This document shows positions 2,140-55,886 of a DNA stretch of 64,000 nt, piece by piece (positions within the stretch are counted from its first letter, which is position 1; every line of letters starts with the position of its first letter). The stretch lies in assembly GCF_001399755.1 (NCBI RefSeq), contig NZ_LJCP01000007.1, positions 248,001 through 312,000 of the forward strand, written 5' to 3'. This stretch comes from Thiohalorhabdus denitrificans (GTDB lineage: Bacteria > Pseudomonadota > Gammaproteobacteria > Thiohalorhabdales > Thiohalorhabdaceae). Under the pieces are notes generated by a model. That model searched no databases. It saw only the letters and a list, made by a program, of their open reading frames with translations, and was not told the DNA's origin. Both the position numbers and the translations under genes were made by a program.

Positions 2140-2712
2140 ATGCGCCAACTTGCCCTTTTAGTAACTTTATTATCTCTTTCCCTTTACCCTGCAATAGCTC
2201 TATCAGGACCTTTTGGAATTGAAATGGGGATGTCGATAGATAAACTAAATACGGCTGATATGAAAAGTCAAGGGATGATTGATTTAGAAAACCCGCCAAA
2301 GCCACACCCCAAATTAAAACACTATACAGTAATGCATACGAAAGAGACTGGTGTTTGCCTTGTAAATGCATTGACAGGGCTAGTTCGTAATGACAAATAT
2401 GGAAAGGATATTAAAAGGCTATTTAAAAAGCTTAAGGGTCAATTAGAAGGAAAGTATGGGGATTTCGAGGATTTACAATATATGGATCCAGATGGGTTGT
2501 GGGATGAAAGAGATGAATGGATGATGTCAATTAATAAGGGGGAAAGGCAATATGCTTCTATAAAAGAAAACTTAAAAGGGGATATAGAATATATAGATAT
2601 GCAAGTGTTAGCTTCTGGCCCTAGTGCGGGAGCGATAAAGATAATGTATAAGTTCTCCAATTTCGAAGAGTGTGATAAAGTTATTTCTGAATCTAGTGCT
2701 TCTACATTATAG
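2140..2712 (+). CDS. AT-rich orphan secreted protein
   Basis: 190 aa. The ATG is preceded by AAGGAGGGG at ideal spacing. Residues 1-22 form a clear signal peptide (LALLVTLLSLSLYPAIALS). The mature domain begins GPFGIEMGMSIDKL, a start seen in small exported domains that bind or fold around a conserved Gly-Met segment, and contains two Cys (about 75 and 177) that could form a disulfide. Codon use is strongly AT-biased, in sharp contrast to both flanks, which indicates recent transfer. It sits between tRNA-Lys and a recombinase fragment. No function can be assigned. Confidence 0.75.
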   Translation: MRQLALLVTLLSLSLYPAIALSGPFGIEMGMSIDKLNTADMKSQGMIDLENPPKPHPKLKHYTVMHTKETGVCLVNALTGLVRNDKYGKDIKRLFKKLKGQLEGKYGDFEDLQYMDPDGLWDERDEWMMSINKGERQYASIKENLKGDIEYIDMQVLASGPSAGAIKIMYKFSNFEECDKVISESSASTL

Positions 2713-2799
2713 CAAAAAATAACCCACGTTTGGTGCGCGGGGGCGCAGCAAAAACCATGCCCCTCCCCATTTGGGGCGGCATGGTGCCCCCCGGTTAGA

Positions 2800-3090
2800 T
2801 TCCTTTGGCCTTCCCTGGTACTTCCCTTCCTGCTTCGCCTTCTCGATCCCTTGCCGCTGCCGTTCCCTCCGTTGCTCGTAATCTTTCCGGGCAATAGCCG
2901 CCATCATGTCCAGCATCATGCCGTTAATGGCGTCCTGCATTCGGGAAGTAAACTCGTCGCTAGTATCGGCTTCCTGTAAGGCCCTATGACTAGTCGGAAA
3001 ATCCAAGGCGACCACCTGTAGGCCCTTAGCCTCAATCTCCGCTCTGAGGGCTTTCCAGGCAGTCGCAGGAAGGCGAGGAAGCCTATCCAC
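2800..3090 (-). pseudogene. Serine recombinase (resolvase) fragment, both ends lost
   Basis: The reading frame begins DRLPRLPATAWKALRAEIEA and continues through GMMLDMMAAIARKDYEQRR and AKQEGKYQGRP, which is the E-helix/C-terminal part of the catalytic domain of Tn3-type resolvases and invertases. The N-terminal half with the catalytic Ser is missing, cut off by the IS481-like element. The C-terminal helix-turn-helix normally following GRP is replaced by unrelated residues that run into the preceding gene. It is therefore a non-functional relic of a larger element. Real homology spans about 2800-3090, although the frame stays open to 2707. Confidence 0.8.
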
Positions 3091-3148
3091 AGACTCAACT
3101 AGCTGTGGGGTTTAAATAGATTATCCACGGGTTTCAACCCAGTAACGC

Positions 3149-46981: not shown

Positions 46982-47058
<77 letters not shown>

Positions 47059-47111
47059 AACACGAATTCGGGCCTGCAACCCCATGGAATGCCGGATCCG
47101 GCACTTCTTTG

Positions 47112-47188
47112 GCGCCTGTAGCTCAACTGGATAGAGCAGCGGCCTTCTAAGCCGCAGGTTGTGGGTTCGATTCCCGCCGGGCGCGCCA
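47112..47188 (+). tRNA. tRNA-Arg (anticodon TCT)
   Basis: 77 nt with CCA. Acceptor GCGCCTG against CGGGCGC (one G-T pair); anticodon loop CTTCTAA between GCGGC and GCCGC. Confidence 0.97.
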
Positions 47189-47265
47189 AATCGGCAGAGG
47201 CGCAATCGGCCGCGGGCCGCCGGCTCCATGCTAGAATGGAGCCCGGATACCCCCCGAATGCGATG

Positions 47266-47341
47266 GTGAGCGTAGCTCAGTTGGTAGAGCCCCGGATTGT
47301 GGCTCCGGTGGTCGGGAGTTCGAATCTCCTCGCTCACCCCA
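47266..47341 (+). tRNA. tRNA-His (anticodon GTG)
   Basis: 76 nt with CCA, preceded by the G at 47265 that becomes G-1. Acceptor GTGAGCG against CGCTCAC, discriminator C; anticodon loop TTGTGGC between CCGGA and TCCGG. Confidence 0.97.
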
Positions 47342-47360
47342 TTTTCGAAAAGCAGTAGAT

Positions 47361-47436
<76 letters not shown>

Positions 47437-48561: not shown

Positions 48562-49138
48562 ATGCCCTCCGCAACACCTGGCGGACCAGCCCACCATCGG
48601 CGGGGTCAGCATCCCGGTGAACGAGCACGGGCGGGTGAGCCTGAATGCGCTCCACCGGGCGAGTGGGGCTGGCTCAGAAAAGGGACCTGGCAGGTGGCGC
48701 CGGTCCCGGCAGGCCCAGGAGCTTGCTGAGGAGCTGAGGCCAGATGTGGCTTCTGACCCTGTTTCGGTTGCGAGCACAGGATCCCCCGGCACCTACGCCC
48801 ACCCCGACCTGGGCATTTCCTACGCCGGTTGGATACGTCCCGCTTTCCAGGTCCAGGTGAACCGCACCTTCCGGCAGTACCAGGAGGGCACCCTGCCGGC
48901 CCGGCCTTCCCGGGGCCTGTTGGAAGGCGCGCCGCGGGCGGTGAAAAAGTTGGAGACGCAGCGGATCGTCCCCTCTGAGGCTCTGACAGAGCCCGTGCCC
49001 CCAGCCGGAACTCCGCGGCGATACCGTGGGCCAGGCCCTGGCCACCATCTGGGATCTGGGGTCGGCGCTGCGGACATGCAATGGGCGGCTGGGGATGGGG
49101 GGGAGTGGGCCGGGGAAGACAATGAGCCTGTGGAATGA
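48562..49138 (+). pseudogene. KilA-N domain (phage antirepressor-type) relic
   Basis: The frame through GGVSIPVNEHGRVSLNALHR, then RQAQELAEEL and TYAHPDLGISYAGWIRPAFQ followed by VQVNRTF matches the KilA-N DNA-binding domain of phage regulators. The frame has no start codon: its N-terminus extends back past the GTG at 48617 without a Met, while the ATG at 48562 is in another frame. Past about residue 130 the similarity stops, and another frame looks coding (GQALATIWDLGSAL), so a second shift is likely. It is a phage remnant. Confidence 0.7.
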
Positions 49139-49346
49139 GGCCGACCAATCATAATACCTATCAAAAAGTTTTTAGGACGTAAACGCTGTCGTGGCGCCCT
49201 CCTCCGCTACCGCAGTATCTCTCCTTGCATCAAGAGCTAGGTAAGGGAAGAGGAAGCATGTCACGGGATGTCGAGAAAGTTTTCACTTAATCCGGAAGAA
49301 GATTGAACCTAATAGGAAAACATTTTATAAACAATTCGATAGTTAT

Positions 49347-49361
49347 TGGCATAGCTGTTGC
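49347..49361 (+). promoter_or_regulatory. Sigma-54 (RpoN) promoter upstream of the PEP-CTERM HAF gene
   Basis: TGGCAT-N5-TTGC: GG at 49348-49349 and GC at 49360-49361 have the exact -24/-12 spacing, with TT after the second block. Predicted start near 49373, 60 nt before the ATG. Sigma-54 control through a PrsK/PrsR-type system is known for many PEP-CTERM genes. Confidence 0.75.
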
Positions 49362-49432
49362 TTCAGGAAGGCAAACGTTACTGGACAACTAGTTCCGGGC
49401 CAGTACGTAAGAGACGGCCCAAGGAGTAGCTG

Positions 49433-50701
49433 ATGCCAACATTATCCGCAAAAAAACCAACCGGCTTGAAAACTACCTTCAGGGATGACGGAGGCCGGCA
49501 GCTCCCGAAGCCATCACTAGGCTGTATGCCATACACCCCTCGAAACACCACTCTGGGGGCGCTGGTGGTGAGTGTCGCGCTCGGCATGGCCGCTCCGGCA
49601 GCCTTGGCGGTGCCCACTTACAATGTAACCGACCTCGGCGACCTTCCCGGTGGTGAAGACCTCAGCAACGCCTCCGACATCAACGATGCCGGCCAAGTGG
49701 TGGGTAGCAGTGAAGACGCTTCAGGGCGCCGGGCCTTTCGATGGGAGTCCGGTAGCGGCATGACAGGCCTGGGCGACTTGCCCGGGGGGGAGGTAGATAG
49801 TCACGCCTGGGGTATCAACAACGCCGGTCAAGCCGTGGGCTACAGCAAAGCCACTGGGCAGCCGGGGAGTCTGGCTGTCCGGTGGGATCCCGGCAGTGGC
49901 ATGACCAAACTAGGCGAACTGCCCGGGGGTGCTGACTACAGCAACGCCTCCGACATCAACGACGCCGGCCAAGTGGCAGGTAACAGCAATGCTGCAACAG
50001 GGTTCCGGGCCGTCCGATGGGAGCCCGGCGGTGGCATAACCAACCTAGGCGACCTGCCCGGGGGGATGGACTACAGTGCCGCCTACGGCATCAATAACTC
50101 CGGCCAGGTGGTTGGCAACAGTGAAGACGCAACAGGAGAGTGGGTGGCCTTTCTTTGGAAGCCAGGCACCGGAATGACTAACCTTGGGGATCTGCCTGGG
50201 GGGGATGTCTCTAGCATCGGTCATGACATCAACAATGCCGGCCAAGTGGTGGGCAGCAGCCAAGACGCTTCAGGGCGCCGGGCCTTTCGATGGGAGGCCG
50301 ACAGTGGAATGACGAAACTGGAAACCCTACCTGGGGGAGATGACCACACCGAAGCCTTCGGGATCAACGACTCTGGCCAAGTGGTGGGCTATAGCCGCAC
50401 CGACAGCCACATCGCCGCCGGGAGGCGCGCCTTCCTCCACGAAGAGGAGGGGGGCATGTTCCAGCTAGATGACCTTATCGATCCTAGCGATCCCCTTGCG
50501 GGTATTACCCTGACTAAAGCCCAAGGGATTAATAATCATGGCCAGATCGCTGCGCATGGACATCTGCCTGGGGAAGAGGCAACCAGTGCCTTTCGCCTGA
50601 CCCCAAAATCTACCTCTGTCCCCGTTCCCGGGCCCTCTAGCCTTGCCTTGCTTGGGTTAGGCTTAGCCGTTGCGGCAGGCTCGGTCCGTCGACAAAGTTG
50701 A
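49433..50701 (+). CDS. Secreted HAF-repeat protein with PEP-CTERM-like sorting tail
   Basis: 422 aa; ATG 49433 has AAGGAG upstream, though Met32 (49526) would give a more normal signal peptide (LGALVVSVALGMAAPAALA ends near 59). Seven repeats of about 46 residues carry I-N-D/N-x-G-Q-V-V-G at 83, 129, 175, 220, 266, 311 and 366, each preceded by LGDLPGG. The C-terminus has a VPGP motif, a hydrophobic helix (SSLALLGLGLAVAAGSV) and RRQS: a PEP-CTERM signal with Gly for Glu. Such proteins are processed by exosortase and displayed or secreted into the matrix. No exosortase is in the window. Confidence 0.85.
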   Translation: MPTLSAKKPTGLKTTFRDDGGRQLPKPSLGCMPYTPRNTTLGALVVSVALGMAAPAALAVPTYNVTDLGDLPGGEDLSNASDINDAGQVVGSSEDASGRRAFRWESGSGMTGLGDLPGGEVDSHAWGINNAGQAVGYSKATGQPGSLAVRWDPGSGMTKLGELPGGADYSNASDINDAGQVAGNSNAATGFRAVRWEPGGGITNLGDLPGGMDYSAAYGINNSGQVVGNSEDATGEWVAFLWKPGTGMTNLGDLPGGDVSSIGHDINNAGQVVGSSQDASGRRAFRWEADSGMTKLETLPGGDDHTEAFGINDSGQVVGYSRTDSHIAAGRRAFLHEEEGGMFQLDDLIDPSDPLAGITLTKAQGINNHGQIAAHGHLPGEEATSAFRLTPKSTSVPVPGPSSLALLGLGLAVAAGSVRRQS

Positions 50702-50780: not shown

Positions 50781-50857
50781 AAAAAGCGCTTCCAAGGAGG
50801 CTCACAAAACCGCTTTTTGCCCCCGGCAACCAGGTGTTTCCGCCCCGTTGCCGGGGG
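50781..50857 (+). terminator. Inverted repeats after the HAF gene
   Basis: AAAAAGCG/CGCTTTTT (50781-50818) and CCCCCGGCAAC/GTTGCCGGGGG (50820-50857) follow the HAF stop by 80 nt. The first ends in T; together they probably stop transcription. Confidence 0.5.
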
Positions 50858-50874
50858 TTTCCAGGGAGACGTAG

Positions 50875-51153
50875 CTAAACAGGTTGTCCTGGGGATTTTC
50901 GGCGCCCCGCACGCCGGGCCTCCTTCAGGTTTGTGGGTTCGCCCGTAGGATGCCAAAACCCGGACTTTTTCAGCAGCCTGTTAGGGCGAACCGCGCTACG
51001 GTTGAGATTCCCCTGCCCAAGCAACCGCCCGATTAGCTCGCGCACCTTCCTTGTACGCTCGTACCCAAGCCCCCGCGCCAGGTCCAAGTCGTAGACCATG
51101 GGCTCGCCGTTGATCCAGTAGACCAGGAGGCCCTCGCCGTGGGGGCGCCGCAT
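50875..51153 (-). CDS. Short phage-regulator-like ORF (antirepressor N-terminal type)
   Basis: 92 aa if started at ATG 51153 (a longer in-frame Met at 51249 is less likely). GEGLLVYWINGEPMVYDLDL-type start followed by ARGLGYERTRKVRELIGRLL resembles the N-terminal helix-turn-helix segment of phage Rha/antirepressor proteins. The part after residue about 55 does not fit and is probably degenerate. Lies downstream of DUF3800 on the same strand. Low-confidence family call. Confidence 0.45.
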   Translation of the reverse strand: MRRPHGEGLLVYWINGEPMVYDLDLARGLGYERTRKVRELIGRLLGQGNLNRSAVRPNRLLKKSGFWHPTGEPTNLKEARRAGRRKSPGQPV

Positions 51154-51321: not shown

Positions 51322-52062
51322 TCAGGGGTAGCATTTCAGCCCCCACCCCTGGATTTTCCCGTTCTGGTCCCGCCTGATCTTTGGCTCCAGGATGGCGAAG
51401 GCCCGGTTGGGCTGGCTTGGGTCCAGGATGTGCCGGCCAATCGGCCGGGCCACCATGTCGGCAAGCTGGAGCCCGGCGGAGTTGACCTGCTTATCCGCCA
51501 GCACCAGGTCCAGTGTTTCCCCCATTCCCGCCATCTGGGTCCGGTCCATGATGCGCCGGAACTCCAGTTCCAGGGCCTCGTCCTCTTGGCGGCCCCGCCG
51601 CTCGAACACCACGTGGTTCAGCTTGCCGCGCTGCCCCCTACCCTGGAGCTCCAGGAATACCCGCTCCAGCCCGTACTCCATGGCGATGTGGTAGGGGTTA
51701 TGGTCCACCCCCTTGCGGTGCGCGAAGGCTTCCTTCCGGATGGCCGTGGCCACGATGGTGAATGGGGCCCGGCTAATCAGGTCGGTCAGTTCTTCCATGA
51801 ACGGCTCCCGCAGCCGGGGGTTCAGCAAGAACTCGAAAGGGGGCCGAGCTTTGCGGATTTCCGCCTCGTGGAGGATCACCATGTCGTGGCCGAAGTAGCG
51901 GAACTTCAAGTCCTGGATGGCCGGAACCACCTGCTCCAGGTAGCCGCGCTTCTCGAACAGGCAAAAGGCCAGGACGAAGATGGGGTAGTCCGGGTTGATG
52001 CTGGTGAGCCCGTGGTCCCCGCTTTCGTCCACATAGACGATGTAGTCGCTGAATTCTCTCAA
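51322..52062 (-). CDS. DUF3800 domain protein, coupled to restriction-modification gene
   Basis: 246 aa. N-terminal YVDESGDHG (10-18) is the acidic RNase H-like motif of DUF3800; further acidic positions are VVFERRGRQEDEALELEF and LQLADMVARPIGRH near 200-213, where Asp is conserved. The fold suggests a metal-dependent nuclease. ATG 52062 lies 2 nt after the stop of the MmeI-like gene, so both are translated together, which points to a role in the same defence module. No proven function for the family. Confidence 0.85.
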   Translation of the reverse strand: MREFSDYIVYVDESGDHGLTSINPDYPIFVLAFCLFEKRGYLEQVVPAIQDLKFRYFGHDMVILHEAEIRKARPPFEFLLNPRLREPFMEELTDLISRAPFTIVATAIRKEAFAHRKGVDHNPYHIAMEYGLERVFLELQGRGQRGKLNHVVFERRGRQEDEALELEFRRIMDRTQMAGMGETLDLVLADKQVNSAGLQLADMVARPIGRHILDPSQPNRAFAILEPKIRRDQNGKIQGWGLKCYP

Positions 52063-52064
52063 CC

Positions 52065-55000
52065 CTAGGCCGCCCGGTATTCACCTTCCTCGTTCTGCTG
52101 CGCCTGCCCTAGGGCCTCCAGGGTGTCCAGCAGCTCCGCCACTTTCTTCTTCTGCGCCCGGTGGAACTGGCGGGCCACCACCTCCGGCTCCACGGGGGTG
52201 GTGGCGCCCTCCAGCACCTCCCGCACGGCCTGGATCTGCTCCGGCAGGGTCTTGGGCCAGGAGCGCTTCTTGGCCTGGGTGGTGGCCATTTTCTCGGCCT
52301 GCTCCTCCACCATCTCCGCCTGGGTGGGGGCGCGGCCCTCGGGGTTCTGGTAGTCCGGCCGCAGCCAGCGGATGTGGCCCCGCTTCTCCTCCTCGGCCCG
52401 CTCGGCGTTGAGCGCCGCCAGGCGCCCGAGCAGCTCCTCCTCGGCCTCGGCCTGCTCGGGGTCCAGGTCGGTGCGGGGGGTGGTGCCGCCGGGCTTGCCC
52501 ACCAGGGCCGGGGCCAGGTCGCTCCAGCCGTAGGCCGCCAGGACGGCCTCGTCCAGGCGATCGTGGAGGTCGGCGAGGACGGAGACCAGGCCCTGGTCGT
52601 AAGCGGCCCGCTCCGCCCGGGTCAGCTCCTCCCCGGCGCGGAGCTTGTCCAGGGCGTTGTACATACCGGTGAGGGTGAGGTCGGGGTGCTCGGCCTGCTG
52701 GCGCTTGCGGTGGGCGTCCAGCTCCGCGGCCAGATCCCGGATGCGCTGGCGGGAGACCTCGTCGGTTTCCGGAAATGGGAAGGTCTGGAAGCAACGAGTG
52801 TTCACATAAACTAAATCATTTCCAACGCCCAGCCTACTTCCAGAAGCTAAGGACCAGCGGGCATGAGTCCGACTAGAAAGAATTCCTAAATCAAATGAAT
52901 CGCTTAATGCTATATTGAAGAGCTTATTATCGGGCAAAACATTCTTGTCCAAGAAAACAAAGGTTCGGTGCTTTGTATTTTCAAGAGTTGCAATATAGCG
53001 GTCTAGCCCATCTAACATTTCCCGAAGGTCAGGTCTCGGTTTCCCGAATTGCCACCAATTTTTGGCATATTCGGCTCCGTCCTTGGTGTGCCCTTTTGCC
53101 TCTCGCTCCGGTTTTACTCGCTCGGCGATCCATTGATATACCGCGGGGAAACGGCGTCGCACCTCCTCTTCTTCAAGGCCGTAAAGGTCAATTACCAGCA
53201 CCCCACGGGGTCGTTGGGTAAGATCCCGCCCATTACGGTATTGGCGAATATGTTTTTCTAGACCCGGTGTGGAGCCGAGGCCGAGTTCTTTTGCTTGGTC
53301 TGGCGTAACAATGAAACCAGAGCCAACAAGGGTTACCCCCCGGTTTCCTATGCCAGAATTAGCCTCCAAGGGAATAGCGCCCGAGACATCAGCACCTACC
53401 GTCAGGTCTGGATGTAATTTCCCGCTACGAGTAGCAAGTTCAACAGTAACTCCCTCCTCCCGGGCGGATTTTTCGGAAATAACCCAAGCCAAAGTTCCCA
53501 AGGACCCCCCAGCTTCCCCCACGGTCATGGCGATGCGCACGTCGGCGCCGTCGGCACTGTCCACCCAGGGGTGGTTGGGGATGGCGTAGGCCAGGGACAG
53601 GGGCGCCTTGGCCCGCATGTGGTGCTCCAGGACCCGGCGGTTGAAGGTCTGGGGGAGACTGTTCGTGGTGATCAGCCCGAAACGGCGGATCTCCCCGGCC
53701 CGGGCCAGTTCGGCCGCCTTGTGCCACCAGTACATGACGAAATCGGCGGATTCCGGCACCTCCTCCCAGACTTCCCGTAGGGCCTCCACGTAGCCGTCGC
53801 CGAGGGCCATGCGCATCCGCTTGTTGCCGATGAACGGCGGATTCCCCACCACGAAGTCGGCCGCCGGCCATTCGGCCTTGCGGGGGTTGGTGTAGCGGTG
53901 GACGGGCACCCGGGCGGTCTCGTCCGGCACCCGCTCCCCGGTGGTGGGGTGGGTGGTGTAGGTCACGCCGTCCCAGTGGGTGAGGGCCTGGCCGGCGTCG
54001 TCGGTGACGAGCACGGCCTCGTCGTAGTCGAGCACCGCGTCGCGGCACTCGATGTTGTGGAAGTCCTTGAGCACCGGCTCCTCGGGGGACACGTCGCCGC
54101 GGGTGCGCAAGTGCCACTGGAGGAAGCCGATCCAGAGCACGGAGTCGGTGATCTCCGCGGCCCGGGGGTTGGTCTCCAGGCCGAGGAGCTGGTGGGGATC
54201 CACGGTGACGCCGGACAGCTCCAGTAGGCCCTGGGTCTCGCCCAGGTCCTCCAGGGCGTTCAGGACCTCGCCCTCCAGGCGCTTCATGTGCTCCAGGGTG
54301 ACGTAGAGGAAGTTGCCGGAGCCGCAGGCGGGGTCCAGGACCCGCACCTCGCACAGACGGCGGTGGAAGGCCTGGACGGTCTCCACCGCTTCCTGGGGCT
54401 TGCCCTGGGCCTCCAGGTTGTAGGCGGCGGCCTGGACGTTGCGCCAGTCCTCGCGCAGGGGCTCGATGACCGTGGGGAGGACCAGGCGCTCCACGTAGGC
54501 GCGGGGGGTGTAGTGGGCGCCGAGCTTGTGGCGCTCGGTGGGGTCCAGGGCGCGCTCCAGGAGGGTGCCGAAGATGGCCGGCTCCACGTGGCGCCAGTCC
54601 GCCTGGGCCGCCTCCAGGAGCTGGCCGATGCGGTCCCGGTCCAGGGGGAGCACGGTGGGCTCGGCGAACAGGCCGCCGTTGAAGCGCAGCACCTTGTCGC
54701 GGATGGTGGTGGAGAACTCCGAGCCGGTGTTCATGTCCCGCCACAGGCCCTGGAGCAGCGCGGTGAAGCCCTCGGGGTGGTCCTGGGCCTCCGCCAGCAG
54801 CCGGGTGAAGCTCTCCCGGGGCAGCAGGCCCACGTCCTCGGCGAACATGGTGAACAGGCAGCGCATGAGGAAGCCGCTGGCCACCTCGGCGGCGTGGCCG
54901 TCCGCCTCCAGGGAGCGGGCCAGCACCGCCAGGCGGTCGGCCACCTCCTGGGTGACCCGGGCCGATTGCCGGGCCGGGTCCAGGGCCATGGGGTCCATCC

Positions 55001-55523
55001 AGGCTAGGTACAGGCGCCGGCGGATGGCCGGGTCGCGCAGGTCCTCCAGGGAGATGCGGTGGCTGCGAGGATCGGGGAAGGGGGTGTAGGTGGCCCCGGA
55101 GCGGGAGAACTCCGAGTACAGCTCGATGGAACGGCCCACGTCGGTGACGATCACCAGGGGCGGCCGGCCCTCCTCGATGGGCAGGGCCCGGGCGTAGCGC
55201 TCCGCCTGGGAGCGGGCGCGGAGCAGGGCCTTGTCCAGGCGCTCGGATTCGCCCTGCTCGCCGGTGCCCTTGGCCTCCAGGACGAAGCAGCCGCGGCGGT
55301 ACAGGTCGATGAAACCGTGGGCGGTGGAGCCGTCGCCGTGGTGGAAGGTGACCCGGCGCTCGAACACGTAGCCGTTGTCGCGGGTGTCCTCCCGGGCCGG
55401 GTCCGGGCGGGGCAGCTCCAGCAGGTCGCACAGCTCGTTGAGGAAGAGCTGCGCGTTGGACCGCTCCGCCCCGGCGGCGCCCTGCCAGCGGGTGATGAAT
55501 GCCTCGATGTCCTGATCGCCCAT
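52065..55523 (-). CDS. Single-chain type IIG/IIL (MmeI-like) restriction-modification enzyme
   Basis: 1152 aa from ATG 55523. N-terminal PD-(D/E)XK nuclease with D73-x9-E83-A-K85 ([16 protein letters not shown]), a helical spacer, then a gamma-type N6-adenine methyltransferase: motif [10 protein letters not shown] (397-405) and motif IV NPPF (561-564). Residues about 670-910 correspond to the target-recognition domain, and the rest is a helical C-terminal part. The order matches MmeI, which methylates one strand for protection and cuts about 20 nt away. The gene segment for the recognition domain (about 52795-53515) is clearly AT-richer than both sides, suggesting exchange. Alternative: BREX/DISARM-type methylase, less likely because of the fused nuclease. 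Confidence 0.9.
52795..53515 (-). other. AT-rich insert inside the restriction-modification gene (target-recognition region)
   Basis: Reading from the flanks, codon use changes sharply near 53515 and back near 52795, from strongly GC-rich third positions to A/T-rich ones, while the reading frame stays intact. It covers residues about 670-910 of the MmeI-like enzyme. Confidence 0.7.
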
Positions 55524-55886
55524 GGGTCCCCCGGTGTCGTGCGCCGGACAGGGTACCCGGGCGTTTGGACAAGCGGAAGGCCCCAGCAAGCCCTGTTCAA
55601 AGGGCTTCTAGCCTGAATTTGTCTAATCTAACTTTTATGACCTGCCCCCGTTTTTAGGGCCACTTCTTACTTAGGAGCGCCCGGTGGCTATTCCACGGAC
55701 CCGGCCCAGCTCCGCAGCCCCCAACCTTCCTTCAGCGTCACCCCCGGAACTCCACCTCCGCCTCCCGCTCAACCCCCGTTATCCATTCCAAACTTGACCG
55801 CAGTCATAACGGCACCCCCGGCAGGCGTGCCTAATGGTTCATGGCAGTTCCTATGCAACTTTCCCACGCCAGCGAGGGGCTGAGCC
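55524..55886. other. Divergent regulatory region of narG and the restriction-modification gene
   Basis: 363 nt without an ORF. Contains an AAGCCC/GGGCTT hairpin near 55591, and the FNR-type site and promoter of narG (55794-55835). Confidence 0.5.
55794..55807 (+). promoter_or_regulatory. FNR/DNR-type box upstream of narG
   Basis: TTGAC-CGCA-GTCAT, matching TTGAT-N4-ATCAA at most positions. A -10-like CCTAAT lies at 55830-55835, putting the box centre about 41 nt before a start near 55842, the class II activator position. Anaerobic induction of the nar operon is inferred. Confidence 0.65.

Follow-up and report, generated by a model that had tools for sequence, protein, structure and literature searches.

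The 2.87 Mb genome of Thiohalorhabdus denitrificans (99.9 % complete) includes, close to a block of tRNA genes, a gene for a HAF-repeat protein that ends in a short proline-containing motif, a helix and basic residues, and the question that this locus raises is whether the protein is a cargo of an exosortase and is controlled as such. The DNA analysed, here called the window, is a stretch of 64 000 nt corresponding to bases 248001–312000 of contig 7, and its relevant features are collected in Table 1. Our overall reading is that the gene is very probably an RpoN/PrsR-controlled cargo of the XrtA exosortase, and that the repeats are predicted to form a propeller, which is likely to be a binding module of the matrix.

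Table 1. Features in and around the HAF gene (window positions), and constituents of the XrtA locus found in the same genome
Feature	Position	Strand	Basis or remark
tRNA-Pro, -Arg, -His and -Lys block, 5' of the HAF gene	46982..47436	+	conserved in sister species
KilA-N domain protein, between tRNA block and HAF gene	48617-49138	+	51.6 bits
PrsR box (Haft 'motif 1'), TGTCGAGAAAGTTTTCA	49269..49285	+	11/12 match to TGTCGA-N5-TTTACA
Sigma-54 (-24/-12) promoter, TGGCATAGCTGTTGCTT	49347..49363	+	one mismatch to TGGCACN5TTGC; RpoN present
Shine-Dalgarno AAGGAG	49421..49426	+	read from sequence
HAF-repeat PEP-CTERM protein, 422 aa	49433..50701	+	ORF; TIGR02913, 196.7 bits; PF11949, 41 bits
N-terminal extension with putative Sec signal peptide, ...LGALVVSVALGMAAPAALA/VPTY	49433..49609	+	sequence reading; model helix 42-50
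Seven HAF repeats, predicted seven-bladed beta-propeller	49616..50605	+	AlphaFold2 model, Foldseek
PEP-CTERM signal, VPVPGP + transmembrane helix + RRQS	50618..50698	+	profile scores, leave-one-out model
Probable terminator, GC-rich hairpin, then TTT	50820..50861	+	read from sequence
DUF3800 protein, next after type IIG enzyme	51322-52062	-	
Type IIG (MmeI-like) restriction enzyme-methyltransferase	52065-55589	-	PADLOC, 1557 bits
XrtA locus: regulators PrsK, PrsR, PrsT			785.8, 722.9, 761.3 bits
XrtA locus: EpsB_2 (EpsB2)			TIGR03013
XrtA locus: chain-length determinant; outer-membrane protein			TIGR03007; TIGR03016
XrtA locus: ATPase; deacetylase			TIGR03015; TIGR03006
XrtA locus: glycosyltransferase; amidotransferase; MOP flippase			TIGR03088; TIGR03108; 
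XrtA locus: TIGR03087-like glycosyltransferase			233.7 bits, below cut-off 316.65
XrtA locus: O-ligase			TIGR03097
XrtA locus: PEP-CTERM gene on opposite strand			

The earlier note, made from the sequence of this stretch, had described a gene for a HAF-repeat protein lying under a sigma-54-like site. This observation is real, and the interpretation given in the note is largely upheld. The frame opens with ATG, 6 nt 3' of AAGGAG, although translation might instead begin at M33 (about 49529). The putative signal peptide is clear by eye and has a long n-region, and A57, A59 and VPTY are invariant within the genus.

The C-terminal tail, VPVPGPSSLALLGLGLAVAAGSVRRQS, has the pattern PxP-helix-RR, which had previously been taken for a PEP-CTERM signal on the strength of VPGP, a helix and RRQS. 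Scores from the curated profiles are divided, as hmmscan places the tail just below the cut-offs (17.0 vs 20.7 bits for PF07589 and 15.2 vs 16 for TIGR02595), whereas in a scan of the genome it reaches 22.3 bits with PF07589 and exceeds the Pfam cut-off. A leave-one-out model built from the 16 other tails of the genus gave it 30.1 bits (E 2.3e-8), a model built from the tails of the sister genome alone gave 29.2 bits, and the best of the decoy C-termini taken from 1476 ORFs reached only 8.8 bits. Hence, the tail groups with the remaining ones of the genus, and its reading as a PEP-CTERM signal is upheld. In these tails, any of several residues (A, E, G, S or V) can stand at the centre of PxP, with E between the two prolines in three of 17, and in this respect they differ from the system set out by Haft et al. 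2006 (PMC1569441).

An exosortase had been expected elsewhere in the genome, and a single one was found (PF09721, 264.8 bits). It is of the XrtA subtype (TIGR03109, 347.7 bits), is fused to an EpsI domain, and the genome has one complete XrtA locus, a run of approximately 33 kb. PrsK and PrsR, for which the earlier note had suggested a search, are both encoded in the genome, as is RpoN, in a single copy (478.6 bits). The system is therefore one that is already known, and the HAF gene is newly added to it. The PEP-CTERM/EpsH (XrtA) system with PrsK/PrsR/PrsT was predicted by Haft et al. 2006 (PMC1569441), and in 2023 the RpoN1 dependence of the PEP-CTERM gene pepA of Aquincola tertiaricarbonis, whose genome includes PrsK-PrsR, was shown experimentally and its -24/-12 promoter mapped (TGGCAC/CTGCTT) (PMC9850573). 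The description of the locus as a system of unknown function needs correcting in that this kind of system has been published. The Aquincola PepA belongs to a PEP-CTERM family other than that of the HAF protein, and a floc-formation phenotype is known in that case (PMC9850573). Our literature search found no paper joining 'HAF repeat' and PEP-CTERM.

The sigma-54 site at 49347 has the exact -24/-12 spacing and ends 69 nt before the ATG. On its own it proves nothing, as 4.3 sites with one mismatch are expected by shuffling in 64 kb and two were found. It is lifted above chance by its pairing with a PrsR box, with a spacer of 61 nt, this pair being unique in the window when both strands are considered and appearing 0.0 times in 60 Markov-simulated windows. 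Pairs at a looser threshold occur in approximately 0.7 % of random 300-nt windows, with true sites counted in. Thus, the near-consensus RpoN site proposed earlier stands as to sequence and spacing, while its significance depends on the box. Haft et al. 2006 (PMC1569441) describe a 17-nt motif 1 with a TTTACA end and a spacer of 62.8 +/- 10.6, followed by a sigma-54 motif 2 that lies on average 71 nt from the start codon, and the same arrangement is found upstream of the HAF gene. All three HAF genes examined in the genus have both the pair and the tail, the spacers before the two sister genes being 62 and 60.

Six plausible PEP-CTERM genes were detected in the genome using the Pfam model. The genus tail model recognised nine, beyond which the E value jumps from 1e-6 to 2.15, and the genome thus holds at least nine tagged proteins. 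The paired PrsR box and sigma-54 site precede eight of these nine genes, including the HAF gene, with spacers of 74, 62, 61, 73, 65, 62, 64 and 60 nt (the 62 of the gene at C11:285462 was read from the sequence by eye), and the anticipated regulon of several genes with the same tail and promoter is therefore present. The one gene without the pair, C10:339054, encodes a choice-of-anchor F protein (276.7 bits) and hence may be under other control. Together, the genus tail model and the paired box brought to light three cargo genes in addition to those of the standard Pfam tail scan (L205:3463-4419, L216:868-1584 and L217:793-1587). For two of them the tail score was sufficient, whereas the third lies next to a box pair. 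Each of the three was recognised after the pair had been defined and carries it, though two of the boxes retain only 8/12 consensus letters. One of the three encodes a choice-of-anchor W protein (118.6 bits). When the whole genome was searched for the paired pattern six places were found, and the reversed control pattern gave none, but five of the six are not independent evidence because the pattern was shaped on those five sites. In the sister genome, the pair is likewise found at eight of nine PEP-CTERM genes, some of the boxes being weak.

A further box pair, at C11:284711 (L205:2712-2805, 2920-2979), has no gene behind it but is followed by a conserved terminator. The stretch has no match in Rfam. 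A small RNA was considered and is the less simple explanation, as the sister species has a short gene for a Tat-signal, cysteine-rich protein, HiPIP-like by eye, between the equivalent promoter and terminator (L206, reverse strand, 2281-3092), and loss of this gene is the simpler reading.

Two alternatives would remove the HAF gene from the regulon or its promoter from PrsR control. If the C-terminal helix were an ordinary membrane anchor, the gene would be no exosortase cargo, and the small shortfall of PF07589 and TIGR02595 in hmmscan, together with the presence of VPGP where the family has PEP, would be accounted for. However, the distance between the leave-one-out score and the decoys, the genome-scan score over the Pfam cut-off, the promoter pair shared with other cargo genes and the existence of an exosortase in the genome all argue against this, and we consider it highly improbable. 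The protein might instead be a cargo expressed from some other promoter, the sigma-54 site being a chance match, as the roughly four such sites expected per 64 kb and the one PEP-CTERM gene of the genome that lacks it would allow. Against this are the PrsR box at a spacer of 61, the uniqueness of the pair in the window, its absence from the simulated windows and the pairs, at spacers of 62 and 60, before the sister HAF genes, and there is very little chance that it is correct. Control of the HAF gene by RpoN and PrsR is thus the reading that we retain.

In order to examine the spacing of such pairs, bacterial and archaeal genomes, one for each species, were searched for the exact pattern GTCGAN5TTTACA, 51-81 nt, TGGCAYN5TTGC, and at least 82 sites in at least 80 loci were found. 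Among the matches listed, which span about 59 lineages, an ORF with a PEP-CTERM-like tail starts within 260 nt at 59 of the 82 sites. The spacers of these listed matches form three discrete classes, approximately one helical turn apart, of 51–54 (n=15), 60–65 (n=49) and 72–76 nt (n=17), with a single spacer of 58 nt; none of 55–57, 59, 66–71 or 77–81 nt was seen among them. The class means for the same matches are 51.8 (a class trimmed by the search floor at 51), 62.6 and 74.3, the genus-by-class counts are 11, 39 and 16, and the periodicity was equalled by none of 20,000 uniform samples. The spacers of the T. denitrificans genome itself fall in the upper two classes. A search of the 80 listed loci for further classes without preset conditions yielded few pairs. 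As the classes are discrete and about one turn apart, the natural reading of these sequences is that PrsR needs to be on one helix face relative to the sigma-54 polymerase. Where the available text of Haft et al. 2006 (PMC1569441) gives one mean spacer with an SD of 10.6 and makes no mention of spacing classes, three helical classes are seen here, and our literature search found no paper that reports them. We therefore regard the spacing classes of PrsR-dependent promoters as a new, though modest, advance, which turns a loose description of the site (mean 62.8, SD 10.6) into a sharp rule for finding cargo genes.

The body of the protein belongs to the HAF family (TIGR02913, with a cut-off of 22.65 bits, and DUF3466, PF11949), with which it shares its six to seven repeats; several relatives also have PxP tails at the C-terminus. 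TIGR02913 matches six stretches, and by eye there are six close repeats and one divergent one, so the count of seven given in the earlier note agrees with both this reading and the seven blades of the model described below. No close HAF relatives were found in a search of genome contigs, the relatives used having come from viral contigs and the sister genome. The family is without a PDB structure by sequence, and searches of PDB sequences with the HAF protein found no related chain. An AlphaFold2 model, for which the input alignment consisted of eight HAF proteins, has a mean pLDDT of 81.6 and a pTM of 0.78, with 220 residues at pLDDT >=90 and most repeat blocks at 80–98; confidence is low in the N-terminal extension and around the tail. 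Its strands fall into seven groups, six four-stranded blades and a seventh with three strands (359-366, 372-377 and 384-391). The N-terminal strand 63-67 would complete blade 7, as suggested by the strand order and by its sequence, which is equivalent to the fourth strand elsewhere. The array is thus predicted to be a closed seven-bladed beta-propeller. For what the earlier note called a beta-repeat array, the model and the Foldseek matches thus predict a closed globular domain in place of an extended array.

Foldseek matches to the model in the PDB are beta-propellers (probability 1.00), the best being the fucose-binding lectins PHL (PDB 6fhx), AOL and FleA/AFL (E 1e-7 to 1e-8), which are the nearest solved structures, with enzymes that have propeller domains lower down. 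TM-scores are modest, mostly 0.35–0.5, and hence support the fold class but not the ligand; the lectins themselves are only 11–14 % identical to the HAF model (TM ~0.4–0.5), a likeness at the level of the fold. We regard the propeller fold predicted for the HAF repeats as new but modest, and the matches hint at a multivalent binding role.

Two further alternatives concern what the propeller does and how the gene came to be where it is. Instead of being a lectin or scaffold, the propeller might be an enzyme or serve as a sensor domain in signalling, which would fit the Foldseek matches to virginiamycin B lyase, acylaminoacyl peptidase and gluconolactonase, but no enzyme family scores for the HAF protein, the repeats are alike with no single-site catalytic signature seen, and the fucose lectins are the best matches; such a function is possible, though somewhat unlikely. 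As to location, a mobile element at the tRNA block might have brought the gene in recently. The nearby KilA-N protein, which is probably a phage remnant, the type IIG restriction enzyme and the DUF3800 protein are in keeping with this, as is a repeat of approximately 130 nt just 3' of the gene (50859-50987), possibly a mobile-element end, of which 87 % identical copies are found elsewhere in the genus (C5 and C16 of the sister). However, in the sister species the same tRNA block is immediately followed by a different PEP-CTERM gene, encoding 361 aa, on the opposite strand. Its product is weakly HAF-like (TIGR02913, 16.8 bits, below the cut-off), and the gene has a sigma-54 site of its own and, at a spacer of 76, a weak box. 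The two species therefore both have a PEP-CTERM gene at this block, while the surrounding content differs, and recent arrival on a mobile element is rather unlikely.

The reading that we favour, that of an XrtA cargo with a matrix-binding propeller, suggests the following course of events. PrsK would sense a signal and phosphorylate PrsR, which would bind, on a fixed helix face, to the 49269 box some 100 bp 5' of the transcription start and activate the sigma-54 RNA polymerase at 49347. After export of the HAF protein by Sec, its C-terminal helix would keep it in the inner membrane, VPGP facing the periplasm, until XrtA cuts it and it is passed to the surface or matrix with the exopolysaccharide of the same locus. 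The domain so delivered would be the seven-bladed propeller, which most likely serves the matrix as a binding module, either a lectin or a scaffold. At the level of sequence, the cargo signal, promoter pair, regulators, exosortase and regulon are established; the propeller fold is predicted, and the processing, surface location and ligand of the protein and its function as a matrix lectin or scaffold are inferred. By analogy with the floc formation reported for pepA (PMC9850573), a role in the matrix is plausible.

A stronger proposition, that HAF proteins form a class of seven-bladed propeller lectins new to structural description, which exosortases display on the surface and which bind the polysaccharide of the same XrtA locus, and that PrsR works only from fixed helical positions relative to the -24 box (~52, 62.5 and 74 bp away), is put forward very tentatively and is more probably wrong than right. 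In this, PrsR would be unlike the classical long-range activators of the NtrC type and, if it is true, the strength of the promoters in the cargo regulon may be graded by their spacing class. For the uncharacterised HAF family, the analysis provides both a connection to a sorting system that is already known and a concrete prediction of the fold, which makes the matrix-lectin hypothesis testable with one purified protein.
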